From a virus: a DNA stretch of 46,217 bases. Positions 24,650 to 46,217 of the stretch are shown here, piece after piece. Location of the stretch: positions 1-46,217 of IMG/VR virus record IMGVR_UViG_3300045953_000189; one strand, given 5' to 3'. The position numbers and the translations under genes were made by a program. The notes below the pieces were generated by a model. The model saw nothing but the letters and a program-made list of their open reading frames with translations. It was not told the DNA's origin and searched no databases. Position 1 is the stretch's first letter; each line of letters opens with the position of its first letter.

Positions 24650-24817
24650 TTAGCGCGTTGCCGTGTCCGCCGTCATCCGGATCTCGTTCCGGTGCCCGCA
24701 GTGGCGGCAGATCCGGACGAAGATCGCGTAGCCGTCCGCGATGGCATTGACGTAGTCCCCCAGCCGCTTGTTACAGCGGGCGCAGCGCATCTGCACCAGG
24801 GGCTGATCAGTGCTCAT
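24650..24817 (-). CDS. Com-like zinc-ribbon protein, 55 residues
   Basis: CARC (Cys 12, 15) and CRHC (Cys 37, 40), separated by a short hydrophobic segment, make a zinc ribbon resembling Mu Com, which binds mRNA and switches on translation of a modification gene. It overlaps the upstream gene by 11 bases. Com-like proteins are usually beside mom-type DNA modification genes; none is obvious here, so this may be a general zinc ribbon. Confidence 0.6.
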   Translation of the reverse strand: MSTDQPLVQMRCARCNKRLGDYVNAIADGYAIFVRICRHCGHRNEIRMTADTATR

Positions 24818-25109
24818 GGATCGTCAGGCTGAGCTCGTCTTCAAGGGTGTTTCCGGCTGAGGTTGTGACCCGAAACTGGACGATGTGCCGGGTACCAGAG
24901 GCGCCCTGGTGGACCTTCTGCGTCACCACCCCGCTCGCCGCAGAAGGAGACCCGCTGAGGACGGTCCCAGAAGTGTCCGCCCCCGACGTGGCGTCCTTCG
25001 CCGTCACGGTCGGCGTGGCGAGCGTCTCCCCCACCCCGAGGCGGGCGGCAAAGCTGATTCCGATCACGAACGCCTCGTTCGGCTGCTTCTCGACGCCGCC
25101 GACGATCAT
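24807..25109 (-). CDS. Ig-like small tail protein, 100 residues
   Basis: Begins directly after the stop of the repeat-rich protein. The sequence is a single beta-sandwich (TATPTVTAKDATSG, then HIVQFRVTTSAGNTLEDELSLTI), as in Ig-like adaptor or fibre-attachment proteins of tailed phages. No Cys or membrane segment. Likely a tail-tip accessory. Confidence 0.65.
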   Translation of the reverse strand: MIVGGVEKQPNEAFVIGISFAARLGVGETLATPTVTAKDATSGADTSGTVLSGSPSAASGVVTQKVHQGASGTRHIVQFRVTTSAGNTLEDELSLTIHEH

Positions 25110-27423: not shown

Positions 27424-27612
27424 TCAGCCGGTCAGATAGAAGCTCGTGATCGGAGCGGTGAACCCCTCCGCCTCGTACTGACGACGCCGATCCTCGGGCA
27501 GCGACATCCACCAGACCTGGTCCCACAGTCTGGCCAGGTGGACCTCGAGTAGCTGCACCCGCCGCTCGAGCGGCAGGGCCGGGCTGTCCTGGATCGGATG
27601 CCGATCATTCAT
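27424..27612 (-). CDS. small helical protein, 62 residues
   Basis: Helical, Trp-containing (VHLARLWDQVWWMSLPEDRR) with an ATGA overlap to the upstream gene and a one-base gap to the fibre-like gene. Similar short helical proteins sit among tail-tip genes as assembly helpers. Not recognised. Confidence 0.65.
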   Translation of the reverse strand: MNDRHPIQDSPALPLERRVQLLEVHLARLWDQVWWMSLPEDRRRQYEAEGFTAPITSFYLTG

Positions 27613-28051
27613 GCCAGCGTGAAGACCCCGCTCGAGTGCGGCAAGATCGTTAGAATATTCGGGCTCGTCAGGTTCCTGGCCGTGCCCGTCAGCGAGCAGT
27701 AGCAGATCGGGAAGCCGGAGGTCGTCGAGCCGGACGACTTCCGGATCAGGGCATAGCGGATGCTTTGGATCGTGGTGCCCGACGCGGTGAAGGCCAGACC
27801 GCCCGTCGAGTACGAGAACCGGAACTGCAGGGCCGAGGCGCCCTGCGTCCAGGTCGCCGCCGGGAGTGCCCGCCCGCCGGCTGCGTAGCCGCCGACCGCG
27901 CTCACCTCGCCCACGATGGACGAGAAGATCGAGATGGCCGACAGCGACGTGATCGTGGCCGACGCGCTGTTGCGATGCAGCGACATCTGATCTCGCCGCG
28001 TCCGATTTTGCGCTTCGCGGCGGCGTACAACTTCCAGGCTTGGGCGGCCAT
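27609..28051 (-). pseudogene. small tail-associated beta protein, frameshifted near its start
   Basis: From the ATG at 27986 the frame gives 125 residues matching the body of a common small tail-fibre-linked family (TITSLSAISIFSSIVGEV, GGYAAGGRALPAATW, SGTTIQSIRYALI and a VFTLA end). The usual opening of that family (AWKLYAAAKRKIGRGEI) is present upstream from an ATG at 28051 with a strong GGAGGAGG, but in another frame that stops at 27902. The joining residues (about ten, normally DLDTDTFKIAL-like) are missing. A short deletion or an error in the reads explains this; the shorter product might still be made. Confidence 0.6.
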
Positions 28052-28055
28052 GTCG

Positions 28056-29492
28056 TTACCCCTCCTCCGTCGTGATGGATGCTCCCGTGTTCAGAATGTG
28101 CGCGAGCAGGCCGTCGCCGTAGACGGCGAGCTCGACGACGTCGCCGTACAGGCGGATGAGGTCCAGCCACTCCTGCGCCTGACTGATCATCCAGGGATGG
28201 CAGTAGAAGATCCGCCCGCCGGGATTCGTGACGACCGGCAGCACGTGCGCACCGTCGTTCTCGCGCTGCGCGTACGCATGATGCTCGTCGCCCATGAGGC
28301 AGGAGTCCGCCCCGTAGAGATGGAAGCGACGGAAACCGAGCATCCGGAACAGCGGGATGGCGCGCAGGAGCACCGTCGAGCCGCCCGGAACCGCGTGCCA
28401 CGTCCCGCCGTAGTGGGCGTCCAGCAGATCCTTCACCAGACCTGCCATCGTGTGGAACAGGTACGTCCGGTCCTTCGGGAGCCCCTCGAGCACGGACGGA
28501 TCACACTGTGAGCCGATGAAGTACTTGCACCCGTCCACGACCGGCTTCGTAAAGCGCGCGTTGAACGGCCGGATGTCGACGATGACCTGGGCCGACGGCG
28601 TGAGGCCGTGATCGAGCGCCCAGTTGTACGCACCGTTCAGCGTGATCAGCGGCATTCCGTCCAGACGACGGTGCCGGATCTCCTTCTCGTACTCGAGCAT
28701 CGACGGACCGCCGCCGAGGATCATGACCTCGGTGTCGTTGGTCGGAAACGGGTGGATCTGCTCCCAGCCCTGCGCAATGTTGAAGGCCACGTTCTCGCGA
28801 GCCTTCGACTCCTCCGCGTTCAGCACCCCCGACTTGACCACCTCCCGCCCCGGACGCCAGGCCGAGACGTAGAACAGGCAACGGTTCTCTTCCTCCGCTG
28901 ACCAGTGGATGACGCAGTCCCGGTCGGCGAGCTTCCGGAGCCACCAGGTGTACGACTCCACGGTCAGGTGGAGCTGCTCGCCGATGAGCGCACCGCAGTT
29001 GTCCTTCACGGTCGCGATCGAGAAGAAGACGTGCTGCGCCGCGCGAAGGATGTTGTTCAGCACCTTGTCGACGCGGTCCGGCGGGATATGCTCCATGACG
29101 TCGATGCAGAAGCCGTAGGGGGCTGCCACCGATAGCGGCTGCTCGAGATCGGCCTTCACGAACCGGAGCGCGTGCGCCTGCGTCGTGAGCGCGTCCTGGA
29201 TCTCCGGATCGAGACTATTCCTGACGAAGTCCACCATCGTGACCTTGAGGTTCCCGAGGAGGGCCAGCATCAGGGCCCCGCGACCCGTGCCGCAGCCGAA
29301 GTCGATCACCTCAGCGCCGGAACGAGGCCGAGCCTGCGCTAGGAAGGTCTGCGCGAGCAGCTCCCCCGGAGAGTCCTTCCTGTACTCCGGCATCGCCCAG
29401 AGGCGACCGTACTTCAGGGCCTCCGGGTTCCCCGGCTGGACGGCCACTATGGGGGCCTGCCCGATGATCCCGACCTTCGCGGGCGACGTCAT
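28056..29492 (-). CDS. methyltransferase fused to a DUF115 domain
   Basis: A 478-residue protein with two enzymes in a row. Residues 45-210 are a class I SAM-dependent methyltransferase (motif I IDFGCGTGR at 63-71, DVMEHIPPD near 130). Residues 240-430 match DUF115, the MptE-like family found in pterin-diphosphate kinases and flagellin-glycosylation proteins: MILGGGPSM, LITLNGAYNWAL, VIVDIRPFN, HLYGADSC. The likely job is to add and modify a small group, perhaps on a sugar or virion protein (inference). It overlaps a small gene by ATGA. Confidence 0.8.
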   Translation of the reverse strand: MTSPAKVGIIGQAPIVAVQPGNPEALKYGRLWAMPEYRKDSPGELLAQTFLAQARPRSGAEVIDFGCGTGRGALMLALLGNLKVTMVDFVRNSLDPEIQDALTTQAHALRFVKADLEQPLSVAAPYGFCIDVMEHIPPDRVDKVLNNILRAAQHVFFSIATVKDNCGALIGEQLHLTVESYTWWLRKLADRDCVIHWSAEEENRCLFYVSAWRPGREVVKSGVLNAEESKARENVAFNIAQGWEQIHPFPTNDTEVMILGGGPSMLEYEKEIRHRRLDGMPLITLNGAYNWALDHGLTPSAQVIVDIRPFNARFTKPVVDGCKYFIGSQCDPSVLEGLPKDRTYLFHTMAGLVKDLLDAHYGGTWHAVPGGSTVLLRAIPLFRMLGFRRFHLYGADSCLMGDEHHAYAQRENDGAHVLPVVTNPGGRIFYCHPWMISQAQEWLDLIRLYGDVVELAVYGDGLLAHILNTGASITTEEG

Positions 29493-29812
29493 GCGATCTC
29501 CTCCTGGGCCGCTGGGGCCTCTCCTGACAACACCTCAAGCTCGACGCCGCCGAGCACCGGCGTGTACGACACGGGCTGATCGCCCTGCAGCGCCACGCTC
29601 ACCTCGACGACCTTCATGCGGCTGCCTTCGGGCAGCGCCGCCACCTTCGCCAGCGCCTCCGCCTGAGTCGCGTAGAACTTCACGTCCTTGACCGGGGCTC
29701 GCTCCGGGTGGACGAAGACGCTGGTGACCCCGTCGTCGTAGACGAGCACCGGTGGCTTGATCGCACTCCCCCCGTGCTCGTCAGTGTGGCCGGTGATGAT
29801 GAATGCCATCAT
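29489..29812 (-). CDS. hypothetical protein, 107 residues
   Basis: Mixed alpha/beta, with a YATQAEALAKVAALPEG helix and a beta-rich C-terminal half. It is joined by ATGA overlaps to the acetyltransferase upstream and to the methyltransferase-DUF115 gene downstream, so it belongs to the same cassette. Not recognised. Confidence 0.7.
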   Translation of the reverse strand: MMAFIITGHTDEHGGSAIKPPVLVYDDGVTSVFVHPERAPVKDVKFYATQAEALAKVAALPEGSRMKVVEVSVALQGDQPVSYTPVLGGVELEVLSGEAPAAQEEIA

Positions 29813-30318
29813 CGGACTCCGTGGAGGTCAGAGCACTCCCGCCGGATCCCCGTCACGAGCTCCGCGTCTTCGCGCAGCAGGGTGAAGAACGTCTGGCCTG
29901 GGGTAGGACGCCAGACCCGCCCGCTCGGCTGCCAAGGCGAGCCCAACGAGGCCTCCCGATGGCAGCGGGCCAGGTGCGCGTCGTTCGTGTCCAGGACGAC
30001 CAGCGTGACGGCCTCGGCCCCGCGCGCGAAGGCCTCCCGGCAGAGGTGCCGCCGGATGGCCTGCCGGTACCCCTTGGCTTGGTAGGCCGGGAAGATCCCG
30101 CTGGCATGCCAGTACGTGGCCGTGGTGGGGTCCTTGATGATCGACCCCCAGCCGATGAGCTCCTGGTCGTCCATGTACCCCCAGACGGTCTCCCCCGGCC
30201 GGGTCTCACACGGCGGCTCGGGCCAGCCGTAGCAGGCCAAGAGCGCCTCGCTCCCGATCGCGGCAGCGAAGGCGCGCCACACCGGCCCGGGATGATGACG
30301 CTGGACGGGGACGATCAC
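29809..30318 (-). CDS. GNAT-family acetyltransferase
   Basis: A 169-residue N-acetyltransferase. The acetyl-CoA-binding motif A is visible as GIFPAYQAKGYRQAI (Q-x-x-G-x region) followed by a helix and a VTLVVLDTNDAHL strand. The GTG at 30318 overlaps the upstream stop as GTGA and is preceded by AGGAGG at seven bases, which sets the start. The acceptor is unknown; the neighbours suggest a glycan or protein amine. Confidence 0.82.
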   Translation of the reverse strand: MIVPVQRHHPGPVWRAFAAAIGSEALLACYGWPEPPCETRPGETVWGYMDDQELIGWGSIIKDPTTATYWHASGIFPAYQAKGYRQAIRRHLCREAFARGAEAVTLVVLDTNDAHLARCHREASLGSPWQPSGRVWRPTPGQTFFTLLREDAELVTGIRRECSDLHGVR

Positions 30319-30905
30319 GCGACGGCCTCCTGCTCGGCCAACCACTTCCAGGCGGCCGCGTTCTGGCGGCTCAGGATGGTCGGGTAGACCGCGGCCGCGT
30401 AGTCGTAGCAGCGGCTGACCATCCGCTCGAGCGTCGGCTGGTCGCGCTCCAGGCGCGCCCAGACGGCCAGCGCCCAGGCCACGTGCCCGCGCTCCTCGCC
30501 GACGAGCTGGTGGTAGTCCGCGGCCACGTCAGGGTGCAGCCGGCGCAGGAGCCCCTCGACGTACTCGGCCCGCCGGAGCGTGTTCGCCTCGTTCCAGTGG
30601 ACGACCGCGAACGAGTGCGCGAACCGCGCCGGGTCCGGGAGCTGCGCGGCCAGCGCGCAGTCCCGCTGAGTCATCGCAGCCCACGGTGGCGGCGTCGGGC
30701 GCGGGCCGAACAGGGCGCGCCCCCAGCCCGTCATCATCTCCTCGTGGCCGATCTCCTCCGGACGCATCCGCTCGGCGACGAAACGCTTCTCGTCGTCCGT
30801 CAGGTAGGGCGAGCGGAGCCACAGCGAGCTGGTGACGATGGCCGCCGTCTCGACGCCGGCGACCTCGTAGAGCAGCCGGCCGAGCTTCCGGGTCACGGCG
30901 CTCAT
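30315..30905 (-). CDS. ferritin-like diiron protein
   Basis: A 196-residue helical protein with the ligand pattern of a four-helix diiron carboxylate fold: Glu 19 on helix A, E51-x-x-H54 on helix B (EEIGHE), Glu 106 on helix C (WNEAN), and E138-x-x-H141 on helix D (EERGH). Such proteins use oxygen to hydroxylate or oxidise small molecules or tRNA. It overlaps both neighbours by ATGA/GTGA. In a phage late operon it is unusual. The fold is inferred from spacing only. Confidence 0.65.
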   Translation of the reverse strand: MSAVTRKLGRLLYEVAGVETAAIVTSSLWLRSPYLTDDEKRFVAERMRPEEIGHEEMMTGWGRALFGPRPTPPPWAAMTQRDCALAAQLPDPARFAHSFAVVHWNEANTLRRAEYVEGLLRRLHPDVAADYHQLVGEERGHVAWALAVWARLERDQPTLERMVSRCYDYAAAVYPTILSRQNAAAWKWLAEQEAVA

Positions 30906-32221
30906 ACCGGGATCTCCAGTTCGCGCACGCCGCCGCGGTGGCTGACCGTGGCCGCCCCGATGCCGCCGAGGACCTGCTGCACGCGCGGGTGCGCCCACTG
31001 CTCGTCCGTGATGAACGTCGTCGCCCGCTGGTAGCCCGCGGCCTGGTGCCAGGCGCGCACCCCCTGCCAGACCTCGAGCGCCTCGGCGCGCGCCGAGAAC
31101 GGCGTCACGCCGGCCACCGACGACACGGTCGGCCGGCGCTCGCGCACGAGGCGGACGTGACGGATCTCGCCCTCCGCGAGGCCGACGATCGGCGTAGCGG
31201 CGTCGAGGGCCATCCAGTCGTCGAAGATCTGGAGCGCCCGCTCGGCGCCCGGCACGAGACGCCAGAGCCCGGCGACGGTGTCCCGTAGCGTCACGATCTC
31301 CTCCGGCGTCGCCTCACGGATCGTCAGCAGCGGCGTCTGATACGACCAGCCGGGGGCGGCCGTCCGCATCGTCGGGAACCCCTGACTCTTCGCCAGGGTG
31401 GCATCGACGCCGTAGAGCAGCGTCGCCCACTGCGCGTCGCCGCCGATCCGCGACGCCCCGTACGTCTCGATCAGCCCCTGCAAGTACTCCGGCCGGTCGG
31501 CCCGGACGCGGCTATGGACGGTCATCACGCCGAGCTCGTGCAGCCGCTGGAACATCGGCGTGAACACCTCGCGCCAGAAGCGATAGGTCCGGTCGCGCTG
31601 CAGCCGGACGTTGAAGCCCACGCGGACCTCGGCCGGGCGCTGCGGCGTGAAGTGGTAGGTCTCGAAGCTCAGATTGCGCCCCTGCCAGGACACCGTCATC
31701 GGCCAGCACTGCGGGTCGTCGAACCAGACCGCCGCCCGCGCCCGGCTCTCGTCCTCGGGCTCGTCGTAGATGCCGGCGCCGACGAGCTGGTCAGCGAACG
31801 CCACGGCCTCGGCGGCCGTCATCTCGCGGATCCAGAGACCGGGGCGAACCTCGACCGACGGCGTCGGGTGAACCCGGACGATCGGCGGCGGCGGCACCAT
31901 GTCGTCCGGGGGCGGCGCCAGGCAGGCCAGTTGCCCGCCAAGCGAGCGGCAGAGCGTCCGCTGGTGCTTCTCGGCCTCCAGGCGGTCCTCCCAGGCGAGG
32001 CCGCGCTTTCGCGCCCGCACGTGCGCCTCCGGCATCGCGTGCCAGCCGATCCGCTCGTCGTGGCGCGCCCCGTGGCCGACGAACTTCAACGCCCGCTCCT
32101 GCTCGCGCGTGATCTTCAGCAGCCGCCAGCCAGGCGGCAGCGGGTGCGCGGCGGCAGAGCGCGCGTCCATCTCCAGCACGCCCTCGTTCAGCCCTTCGGC
32201 GTTCACGCAGGCGTACCTCAT
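30902..32221 (-). CDS. protein with two acetyltransferase-like halves
   Basis: A 439-residue protein. After an unrecognised 110-residue lead, residues 125-270 and 285-439 each read like a GNAT-type alpha/beta domain: a long helix before a VMTVHSRVRAD strand and a following ETYGA turn in the first, and WHQAAGYQRATTFITDE plus GIGAATV in the second. The acetyl-CoA loop is not clear in either half, so one or both may be inactive. ATGA overlaps tie it to the diiron gene and the tail-hub gene. Confidence 0.55.
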   Translation of the reverse strand: MRYACVNAEGLNEGVLEMDARSAAAHPLPPGWRLLKITREQERALKFVGHGARHDERIGWHAMPEAHVRARKRGLAWEDRLEAEKHQRTLCRSLGGQLACLAPPPDDMVPPPPIVRVHPTPSVEVRPGLWIREMTAAEAVAFADQLVGAGIYDEPEDESRARAAVWFDDPQCWPMTVSWQGRNLSFETYHFTPQRPAEVRVGFNVRLQRDRTYRFWREVFTPMFQRLHELGVMTVHSRVRADRPEYLQGLIETYGASRIGGDAQWATLLYGVDATLAKSQGFPTMRTAAPGWSYQTPLLTIREATPEEIVTLRDTVAGLWRLVPGAERALQIFDDWMALDAATPIVGLAEGEIRHVRLVRERRPTVSSVAGVTPFSARAEALEVWQGVRAWHQAAGYQRATTFITDEQWAHPRVQQVLGGIGAATVSHRGGVRELEIPV

Positions 32222-41430: not shown

Positions 41431-42456
41431 TCAATCGGCGAGAATCGCCCAGTCACTATTCGCGCCGCCGGCGATGGTCGGCAGCAAGTCGATCTGGAAG
41501 ACCGGCACGTCCTCGACGACGTCGAGCTGTTTGGTGATGACCTCGAGCGCCGACGCCGCCCCATCGCCTGCGTACTGGAACTTGAGCCTGTTCGTATGGA
41601 CCGTGTTGAGCTGGAACGTGCAGTCGAGCAGCGTGCCGTCGCGCATCGCTGCCCACCAGCCGGAGTTCGCGTCGCGGTCAACCTCAGCGACGATCGAGAG
41701 CAGCGGCCGGCGGTCGACGGTCTTGAAGCCTTCGATACCGGTCGCCGCGTTGATGTACCGGCGCGGGACGAACCGGTTGCCCTGAGAAAACCGGAAGCTC
41801 CTGACCTTGGCCGCGTAATTCGAGCCACCGATCTGAAACAACGCACCAGCCAGGAGCGGGTACGTCGGCGATCCGACCAGCGTCCCGGCGACGAAGGCGA
41901 TGTCCTTGTCTTCCTCCCACGCCCCGGCGAAGCTGAAGTCGAAGAAGACCGGCCCGGCCGCCTCGCCCGACACCACGAACGTCCCGACGCACCCGACGAA
42001 CTGGCGACTCCAGGCGTTGCCGCCGGGCACCGGGTAGACGCAGTAAATCGTCTGCGTCAGGTCAGTGTCGCTCGGCGTATACTTGATGCTGCTGCTGCCG
42101 GCCCCTGGGTTCGTGAACGTCGCCGTCAGACCACATCCGAGCAGAGCCCGGTGCGACTCCGGCGCCACGAGCGGCGTGTCGTCATACTCGGCAGCGGCCG
42201 CGCTGCCGCGCCACGGCATCCGAAAGTCGACCCGGCCAAGGCGCGGCCCCTTCAACGACGGCGCCCGCCCCTTCGACCCCATCGTGATCAGGTTCTCGAT
42301 CTCGTTGGGATCGGCAACGGCCCGAATCGTCCGGTAATCGACCGGCTGGACGTCGCCTGCGACGTAGGTGTCCGCGAACACGTCCGTGCCGGCCGTCGCT
42401 TCCTGCTTCATCGCCACGACGGTCCGGCTCGCCACCGGCATGCTGATCTCGGCCAT
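41431..42456 (-). CDS. major tail tube protein
   Basis: A 341-residue beta-rich protein in the tube position, opening VASRTVVAMKQEATAGTDVF with further segments typical of phage tube proteins (IENLITMGSKGRAPSLKGPRLGRV, and a closing VFQIDLLPTIAGG). It would form stacked hexamers along the tape measure. The C-terminal half may carry an outward Ig-like domain, judging by length. No close overlap with the neighbour upstream (15-base gap). Confidence 0.8.
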   Translation of the reverse strand: MAEISMPVASRTVVAMKQEATAGTDVFADTYVAGDVQPVDYRTIRAVADPNEIENLITMGSKGRAPSLKGPRLGRVDFRMPWRGSAAAAEYDDTPLVAPESHRALLGCGLTATFTNPGAGSSSIKYTPSDTDLTQTIYCVYPVPGGNAWSRQFVGCVGTFVVSGEAAGPVFFDFSFAGAWEEDKDIAFVAGTLVGSPTYPLLAGALFQIGGSNYAAKVRSFRFSQGNRFVPRRYINAATGIEGFKTVDRRPLLSIVAEVDRDANSGWWAAMRDGTLLDCTFQLNTVHTNRLKFQYAGDGAASALEVITKQLDVVEDVPVFQIDLLPTIAGGANSDWAILAD

Positions 42457-45045: not shown

Positions 45046-46217
45046 TCAGTCGCGGTCGGCGAGGCCGATGAAGGGGCTCATATCGCTGGCGCCCTTGTAC
45101 GGCGTCAGCTTGATCCGCCACGTGGGCTGGCCGTTGATCCGGAAGACCCAGCGGAAGGTGGACTCGTTGTTGAGGAAGCGGACGTGCATCGAGGTGTCGT
45201 AGCGCAGGCCCTCGGCGGCCTTGGTGATCGTCACGTACTCGTTCAGGTTGACGAGCATGATGTCGCCCGCCTTGCCGAGCTCGTTGGACTGCTCCAGCTC
45301 GATGACCGGTCTGCCGAGCAGCAGGCCCGCAGGGGCATCCTTGAGGTTCCCCGACGGCGGCAGCCAGACCGGCTGGTTACCGATCGACATCTGCGGCAGC
45401 TGGGTCATGACGTCCGGATGGATGAGCCACGCGGCACCGGCCTTCAGGCGGCTGGGCATCCGCGCGTACATCTTCAGGATGTTGCCGACGACGACGGTGT
45501 CGGCCACCTGCGACCCCTCCTTGGCGACCTCGACGTAGGCGGGGTGACCGAAGAATCCGAGCGGCTTGCCGACACCGTTGCCGCGGAAGATCGCGTCGTC
45601 GACCTGGAAGGCCACCTCCGACTCGAACGACGAGCCGAGCAGCCCCTCGAGCGCGCTGGCGTCACGGACCAGACGATCCGTGGCGTAGGCCAGGCCCATG
45701 ATCTCCTCGAGCTTCAGCTCGCCCTTGCCGATCTTGGGCTTCTTGGCCGTGACCGTGTCCGCCTCGGCCACCCAGAAGACCTGCACGCCGCCCCAGCGCG
45801 AGCCGGTCGCGCGGCTGGACTCGTCCACGTACGGGTACTCCAGCGAATCGAAGTCCCCGCCGACCTGGATGTTCCGGGTCCGGGGCAGCAGGACCGCCTG
45901 CTCGCGCGCCCGATCCAGCATGGCGGACGACCAGTCCTTGCGGACCAGGAAGCCGCCGTCGCTGGGCACCCCGACCGACGTCCCGGAGACCGCCTGGTAG
46001 GCGGTCAGCTTGTTCATGAGCTCGTCGGCCCGGCTGGCCCCGAACCGCGAGCGCCAAAGCGAATCCGACGCGCACACGATGGCCTGCAGGAACTCCCCCA
46101 TGCCGCTGAACTCGTGCGTCCCGGGCAGCGGGCTGCCAGCGGGGGCCAGGCGCATGATCTGCGCCTTGTCGTGCTCGGCCAGGCGGGCCTCGGCCTGGAT
46201 CTCGGTCTCCAGCGCCT
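45046..46217 (-). CDS. major capsid protein, HK97 fold (partial, cut by edge)
   Basis: The frame is open to the right edge; its visible part has about 390 residues. The N-terminal end is acidic and helical, like the scaffold-like delta domain of HK97 gp5, and the protease cut site probably lies near residues 40-70 of the visible part. Later segments are typical: MGLAYATDRLVRD, FESEVAFQVDDAIFRGNG, GKPLGFF. Its true start is outside the window; the ATG at 46155 is only an internal codon. Portal and protease genes should lie just beyond the edge. Confidence 0.9.
   Translation of the reverse strand, partial: ALETEIQAEARLAEHDKAQIMRLAPAGSPLPGTHEFSGMGEFLQAIVCASDSLWRSRFGASRADELMNKLTAYQAVSGTSVGVPSDGGFLVRKDWSSAMLDRAREQAVLLPRTRNIQVGGDFDSLEYPYVDESSRATGSRWGGVQVFWVAEADTVTAKKPKIGKGELKLEEIMGLAYATDRLVRDASALEGLLGSSFESEVAFQVDDAIFRGNGVGKPLGFFGHPAYVEVAKEGSQVADTVVVGNILKMYARMPSRLKAGAAWLIHPDVMTQLPQMSIGNQPVWLPPSGNLKDAPAGLLLGRPVIELEQSNELGKAGDIMLVNLNEYVTITKAAEGLRYDTSMHVRFLNNESTFRWVFRINGQPTWRIKLTPYKGASDMSPFIGLADRD

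Follow-up and report, generated by a model that had tools for sequence, protein, structure and literature searches.

A gene for a Maf-like DUF115 protein is paired with a small tail-region gene across tailed phages

What is the role of five chained genes, several of them resembling enzyme genes, inside the tail region of a virus? The question is raised by IMG/VR virus record IMGVR_UViG_3300045953_000189, a single linear record of 46,217 bases with a guanine-plus-cytosine (GC) content of 68.5%. This record was analyzed at its full length and is referred to here as the window. The structural-region genes of the window are on the minus strand, and the five genes of interest, A to E, span positions 32221 to 28056. 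An earlier annotation made without database searches (the sequence-only reading) placed them in a tail region and described them as joined by ATGA or GTGA overlaps. Both points were borne out. HK97-type capsid and tail tube genes lie upstream, and the junctions tail gene/A, A/B, B/C, C/D, and D/E are 4-base overlaps (ATGA, ATGA, GTGA, ATGA, and ATGA, respectively), meaning that A is also coupled to the upstream tail gene. All five frames are open and have a GC content of 0.87 to 0.96 at codon position 3 versus 0.42 to 0.55 at position 2; therefore, they are genuine genes. The results described below indicate that E forms the core of a tail module that is widespread and that its steady partner is F1, a small gene located directly downstream.

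The predicted E protein matched methyltransferase profile PF13649 (9.2e-9) and the MptE-like/DUF115 profile PF01973 (2e-12), over cut-off, in agreement with the fusion originally proposed. PF01973 was over cut-off in 8/8 viral records, and 15/15 domain sequences matched it. When the DUF115 half was used in a sequence-profile search of the PDB, the flagellin glycosyltransferase Maf (5mu5) was matched at 3.2e-5 and MptE (8sd5) at 0.15. A structural model of E built from 30 aligned sequences had a predicted local distance difference test (pLDDT) score of 83. Maf 5mu5 was the top match of this model in a Foldseek search of the PDB (3.6e-11) and in VIA-align (Z score of 20.8 over 329 residues, covering model residues 22 to 472). 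Among the VIA-align matches listed, all but 5mu5 were methyltransferase-type or similar Rossmann folds that covered only the N-terminal half. In addition, a homolog of E in locus L014 (L numbers denote related loci) matched the NCBIfam flagellin modification model PseD at 7.2e-4, which is under the curated cut-off of that model. These results support a glycosyltransferase-like role for E, a shared fold in itself showing no function.

The excerpt of PMC11339370 describes the PF01973 domain of Maf as structurally resembling the sialyltransferase Cst-II. In our searches with E, no Cst-II chain was found in the sequence search up to an E value of 10, and none was found among the best 50 matches of each PDB fold search, which were filled by methyltransferase-type folds.

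Which part of E is the core? The S-adenosylmethionine (SAM) binding motif GCGTGRG was kept in 82/82 E proteins of at least 400 residues, and 13 of 14 shorter homologs did not have it. A second group of E proteins, accounting for 47 of the 80 loci in the first F1-seeded set described below, had no detectable methyltransferase part and consisted of DUF115 only. Thus, the core of E is its DUF115 domain, and the methyltransferase is an optional part. Two polar motifs of the E family were almost invariant, namely GGST (95/96) and R-x-FN-x-RF (94/96). A catalytic role for the motif CHPW was considered but dropped, as its exact form occurred in only 24/96 proteins.

The linkage between E and its neighbors was examined in several sets of loci. 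A peptide-pattern scan with E yielded 26 IMG/VR loci, 18 of which had the DUF115 domain, and an E-family profile scan yielded 290 stretches, 80 of which were kept. The resulting 95-locus set, in which E is present by selection, leaves out eight loci with short methyltransferase segments only (L020 to L027) and the duplicates L039 and L041. F1 followed E in 91 of these loci; in the remaining four (L015, L059, L095, and L108), the contig ended 1 to 65 bases past the E match. Relatives of the fiber-like gene F2 were present in 83 of the loci, and relatives of F4, a paralog that belongs to the same sequence family (G0) as F1, were present in 82. When counted by open reading frame (ORF), the upstream neighbor of E was F4-type in 82/94 cases, and the downstream neighbor was F1-type in 81/92 cases, with an HNH endonuclease gene intervening in 7 more.

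The linkage proved to be two-way in the sets examined. We collected the best 80 of 259 F1 relatives and, in a second and more distant set, the best 80 of 116. A DUF115 domain was found in the flanks of all 80 loci in the first set and all 80 loci in the second; the sets overlap in contigs and together represent 113 distinct contigs. In contrast, E was present in only 6 of 80 loci seeded with F4 (the best 80 of at least 594 relatives). F1 was absent from 74/74 of the F4 loci without E, 14 of which have less than 1.5 kb after F4. Because every F1 locus in both sets carried DUF115 versus 6/80 F4 loci, F4 is a common tail-region protein and F1 is a paralog so far seen, in these sets, only with E. 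In some F4 loci without E (L297, L305 to L307, L309, L312, and L314), a conserved protein of 190 to 200 residues (MEHSKAxDSxTAG...) followed F4, and it is a possible alternative occupant of this slot.

The sequence distances of the partners were also compared, using 42 dereplicated loci of 58. With the adaptor gene and one further neighbor controlled, the partial correlation was 0.61 for E and F1 versus 0.31 for E and F4; the bootstrap difference was 0.04 to 0.49 and was above zero in 98.8% of 500 replicates. The raw correlation between E and the adaptor gene was also high (0.91); therefore, shared descent explains much of the correlation.

The E-F1 pair crosses unrelated capsid and portal types. 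Specifically, it was found with an HK97-type capsid in the window, with Phage_capsid_4 in L038, with a P22-like portal and Phage_capsid_3 in L065, with a Mu-type portal in L043, with a PhageMin_Tail minor tail protein in L006, and with SU10-type adaptors in the L014 group. The pair is also a site of insertion. An HNH gene lay directly after E in seven loci, and group I introns (Rfam RF00028) were located next to or inside F1 in L002:6877-7101, L004:12175-12407, and L038:10107-10405. In these three intron loci, genes for HNH/NUMOD3 endonucleases separated E from F1. The HNH genes after E and the introns at F1 show that mobile elements target this gene pair.

The coordinates of the window features are given in Table 1. 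F2 and its relatives contain TPPAGSLALTGxAPTV-type repeats, and the length of the protein differs between phages. The 751-residue tail protein encoded upstream of A was 37 to 41% identical to its relatives in L004/L008 and the L002 record, and a peptide-pattern search of IMG/VR with this gene found no relative.

Table 1. Positions and assignments of genes in the structural region of the window
Feature	Position	Strand	Assignment or evidence
HK97-type capsid	45046-46155		Upstream of A-E; PF05065, 1e-35
Tail tube	41431-42456		Upstream of A-E; PF18906, 1.6e-11
Upstream tail protein, 751 aa	32218..34473	-	Weak PHROG tail fiber match, 0.002; stop overlaps A start (ATGA)
Gene A, 439 aa	30902..32221	-	No family match
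Gene B, 196 aa	30315..30905	-	Ferritin-like diiron motif pattern: E19, E51xxH54, E106, E138xxH141
Gene C, 169 aa	29809..30318	-	GNAT acetyltransferase, GTG start; PF00583, 3.6e-8
Gene D, 107 aa	29489..29812	-	Coding by codon-position GC
Gene E, 478 aa	28056..29492	-	SAM methyltransferase (~22-214) and Maf_flag10/DUF115 (PF01973) glycosyltransferase-like domain (~230-472)
F1	27609..28051	-	Small Ser/Thr-rich tail-region protein; constant neighbor of E
F2, 770 aa	25110..27422	-	Fiber-like; relatives beside E in 83/95 loci
Relative of L004 F21	24807..25109	-	L004 F21 matches podophage fiber-tail adaptor family Gp77 (PF23148)

Do genes A to D belong with E? Only C was assigned with confidence. As originally proposed, it is a GNAT acetyltransferase, as its translation (taken for the scan from the start at 30345) scored 34.1 bits against the Acetyltransf_1 profile, compared to a cut-off of 20.7. 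No meaningful match to D was found in Pfam, PHROGs, or NCBIfam. In the case of A, we were unable to confirm the two acetyltransferase-like halves that had been suggested: the protein had no family match in Pfam, PHROGs, or NCBIfam at E values up to 1, no match was found when it was compared to C, and a single-sequence AlphaFold model had a pLDDT of 43 and was uninterpretable past about residues 1 to 50. IMG/VR peptide patterns, phage records, and the 95 E loci yielded no relatives of A.

The ferritin-like diiron assignment of B survived in part. The ligand spacing is present, and its order (E, ExxH, E, ExxH) is that in which ferritin-like diiron proteins carry their metal ligands, on a four-helix bundle; no family match was found in Pfam, PHROGs, or NCBIfam. 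Shuffling B 20,000 times reproduced this spacing 147 times. Among sequences of 150 residues or more, the spacing was absent from all 797 proteins examined in related loci and present in 3 of the 88 window ORFs, a total that includes B's own ORF. With a motif control that is moderate and no family match, we consider it plausible, from the sequence pattern, that B is a diiron protein. Searches for relatives of B, including an IMG/VR peptide-pattern search, found none, and comparison of A and B to PDB sequences gave chance-level matches only.

None of A, B, C, and D was found in the 95 E-bearing loci or in the further F1 and F4 locus sets, and A and B were absent from 29 whole related viral records. 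In L004 and L008, the nearest relatives in which the tail gene has a homolog, other genes occupy the A-D space, including those for a Gp77-type adaptor and for two proteins that had no Pfam match. The product of L004:6078-6500, in the same slot, reads like a lysozyme. Because A to D were not found in related loci, conserved linkage of the five genes was lacking, and the single concerted five-enzyme cassette of the sequence-only reading did not hold up. What the neighborhood comparison revealed in its place was the strong E-F1-F2 linkage, which that reading had not mentioned.

Taken together, our best reading, which we hold at about even confidence, is that E is a Maf-like O-glycosyltransferase that acts on F1 or neighboring fiber proteins, with an optional methyltransferase, and that A to D are lineage-specific additions. 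The suggestion of flagellin-type glycosylation, perhaps of tail proteins, thus stands in the case of E, for which Maf is the nearest solved structure and F1 is the partner. The PF01973 domain would act in the cytoplasm while virions are being assembled, transferring an activated sugar, perhaps a host-derived nonulosonic acid, onto Ser/Thr residues of one of their tail proteins. F1, encoded directly downstream, or the adjoining repeat fiber F2 would most likely be the acceptor. The substrate of the N-terminal, lineage-variable methyltransferase is probably the sugar or the acceptor. The GNAT protein C, the possible diiron protein B, and A and D may tailor the sugar further or serve something unrelated. 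We also propose, more tentatively, a mobile module in which a Maf-like glycosyltransferase and its dedicated acceptor F1, a duplicate of F4, would glycosylate tail tips and spread together among unrelated tailed phages. In this proposal, the methyltransferase is optional, and the extra GNAT and putative diiron proteins of the window would diversify the glycan.

The known Maf enzymes offer a close comparison. In both Maf 5mu5 and E, a PF01973 domain is preceded by a Rossmann-type domain, and E aligns over both. According to the excerpt of PMC11339370, Maf has a helical C-terminal domain, and its N-terminal domain is a degenerate Rossmann fold in which methyltransferase motifs are weak; in contrast, among E proteins the methyltransferase motif is intact or the N-terminal domain is missing. 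According to the excerpt of PMC4065374, Maf binds flagellin directly and modifies it in the cytoplasm. The setting differs as well, since E is found in a phage tail/fiber neighborhood in the 95 loci and not in a flagellin or motility locus.

Several observations weigh against a Maf-like enzyme that modifies F1. E has no C-terminal helical chaperone-like domain such as that of Maf: it ends at residue 478, and the alignment stops at model residue 472 and 5mu5 chain residue 502. Moreover, the root mean square deviation of this alignment was 11.2, which reflects a different packing of the two domains in the model. In the window, F1 changes frame between its initial codons (ATG at 28051) and the rest of the ORF (27986-27609), and a short stretch found in relatives is missing; therefore, F1 may be a defective acceptor in this phage, or the assembly may contain an error. 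The Ser/Thr content of F1 was 24%, compared to 28% for F4 and a median of 15% for the others (95th percentile, 27.5%). This is within the range of tail proteins, and Ser/Thr enrichment was rejected as a sign of an acceptor. No sugar-donor biosynthesis gene was recognized among the window genes scanned. Finally, the F1 sets were seeded from E-adjacent F1 genes and hold best matches only, and linkage alone fits co-assembly or chaperoning as well as modification.

The last point leads to the rival explanations. Strict pairing with F1 would be expected if E had no catalytic activity and served as a scaffold or chaperone when F1 is assembled, and the excerpt of PMC4065374 reports that Maf1 binds its acceptor directly and that the sugar is not needed. 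However, the SAM motif of the long forms and both polar motifs are kept almost without exception, and we consider a dead E improbable. A pterin-related role was judged to be more improbable still. Here, E would be an MptE-type pterin pyrophosphokinase that supplies a modified pterin, as the Pfam title of PF01973 and the database name of phage homologs (MptE-like) suggest. MptE 8sd5, a 6-hydroxymethyl-dihydropterin pyrophosphokinase, shares this Pfam family with E, but its profile match is far poorer than that of Maf, it has no methyltransferase fusion, and its context is unrelated; E is located among tail genes, and its fusion mirrors the two-domain layout of Maf.

Two further explanations are unlikely but deserve more weight. 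Fiber genes can be transferred along with genes for receptor-altering enzymes, and E may alter a host surface glycan for receptor masking or superinfection exclusion, with F1 linked to it through a shared host-recognition module. The switching of phage backgrounds by the E module is like that of host-recognition modules. In contrast, the fold nearest to that of E is a protein O-glycosyltransferase, E lies inside a late structural operon and is flanked by structural genes, and no F1 locus examined was without E. Slightly less credible to us is a pathway in which A to E together build an unusual sugar or small molecule. All five genes are translationally coupled through their overlaps, and GNAT and methyltransferase reactions are usual sugar-tailoring activities. 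The distribution of A to D described above, which includes the absence of A and B from whole records, argues against such a pathway, as do the lack of an enzyme signature in A and the other genes that close relatives carry in the place of A to D.

Other potential tailoring genes were noted near E in related phages. We scanned 111 of 124 candidate neighbor proteins (13 were dropped as apparent shadow frames, end fragments, or uninformative) and found 2-oxoglutarate (2OG) oxygenases (PF13640) in 8 of the 111. A fiber-region run in L014 (14983-20543) encodes a sulfotransferase-TPR protein, a tail chaperone, a GT25 protein, an adenosine phosphosulfate (APS)-kinase-like protein, a DXD glycosyltransferase, and a DUF6445/2OG oxygenase. 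This run, from a phage that has SU10-type adaptors, is a candidate island of glycan or sulfation genes. One or two copies of short GT2-like glycosyltransferase genes are located between the capsid-region genes and E in L038:5358-5987 and L040:5397-7113.

How much of this was known? E matched 10 of 50,697 phage records, only via residues 24 to 223 on the methyltransferase side, and these records contained no match to F1 or to the DUF115-only form. The sole genome-contig match to E was L116 (JAHRHE010000198.1), a 5.5-kb contig binned in a Nitrospirae metagenome-assembled genome; it is possibly a phage contig and a hint at the host. Phage virion glycosylation itself is known, as described in the excerpt of PMC11256854, which cites Freeman 2023 for glycosylated capsid proteins in mycobacteriophages Che8 and Rita. 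According to this excerpt, phage-encoded glycosyltransferases are proposed or reported to decorate virion proteins; the decorated proteins there are capsid proteins, whereas here a PF01973 enzyme of uncultured phages is paired with one small tail-region protein. DUF115 proteins of uncultured phages are also present in structure databases as MptE-like. Two BFVD entries from uncultured Caudovirales (A0A6J7XC21 and A0A6J5L5C1) share the domain fold of E (root mean square deviation of 2.3 to 2.7 over ~256 columns, 27 to 30% identity), but they are annotated by domain name alone. Among the titles listed by a literature search, none concerned a phage tail module with a Maf or DUF115 enzyme, and neither the E-F1 pairing nor the Maf-like reading appeared there, although a description may exist in print.

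If the proposed role of E is correct, then a large group of environmental tailed phages glycosylates a tail-region protein using a relative of the flagellin glycosyltransferase. The similarity to Maf would then also provide a rationale for renaming phage proteins that are currently labeled pterin kinases. Such a role would tie phage virion glycosylation to bacterial flagellin glycosylation, and the E-F1 pair would offer a testable system for why phages decorate their adsorption structures.

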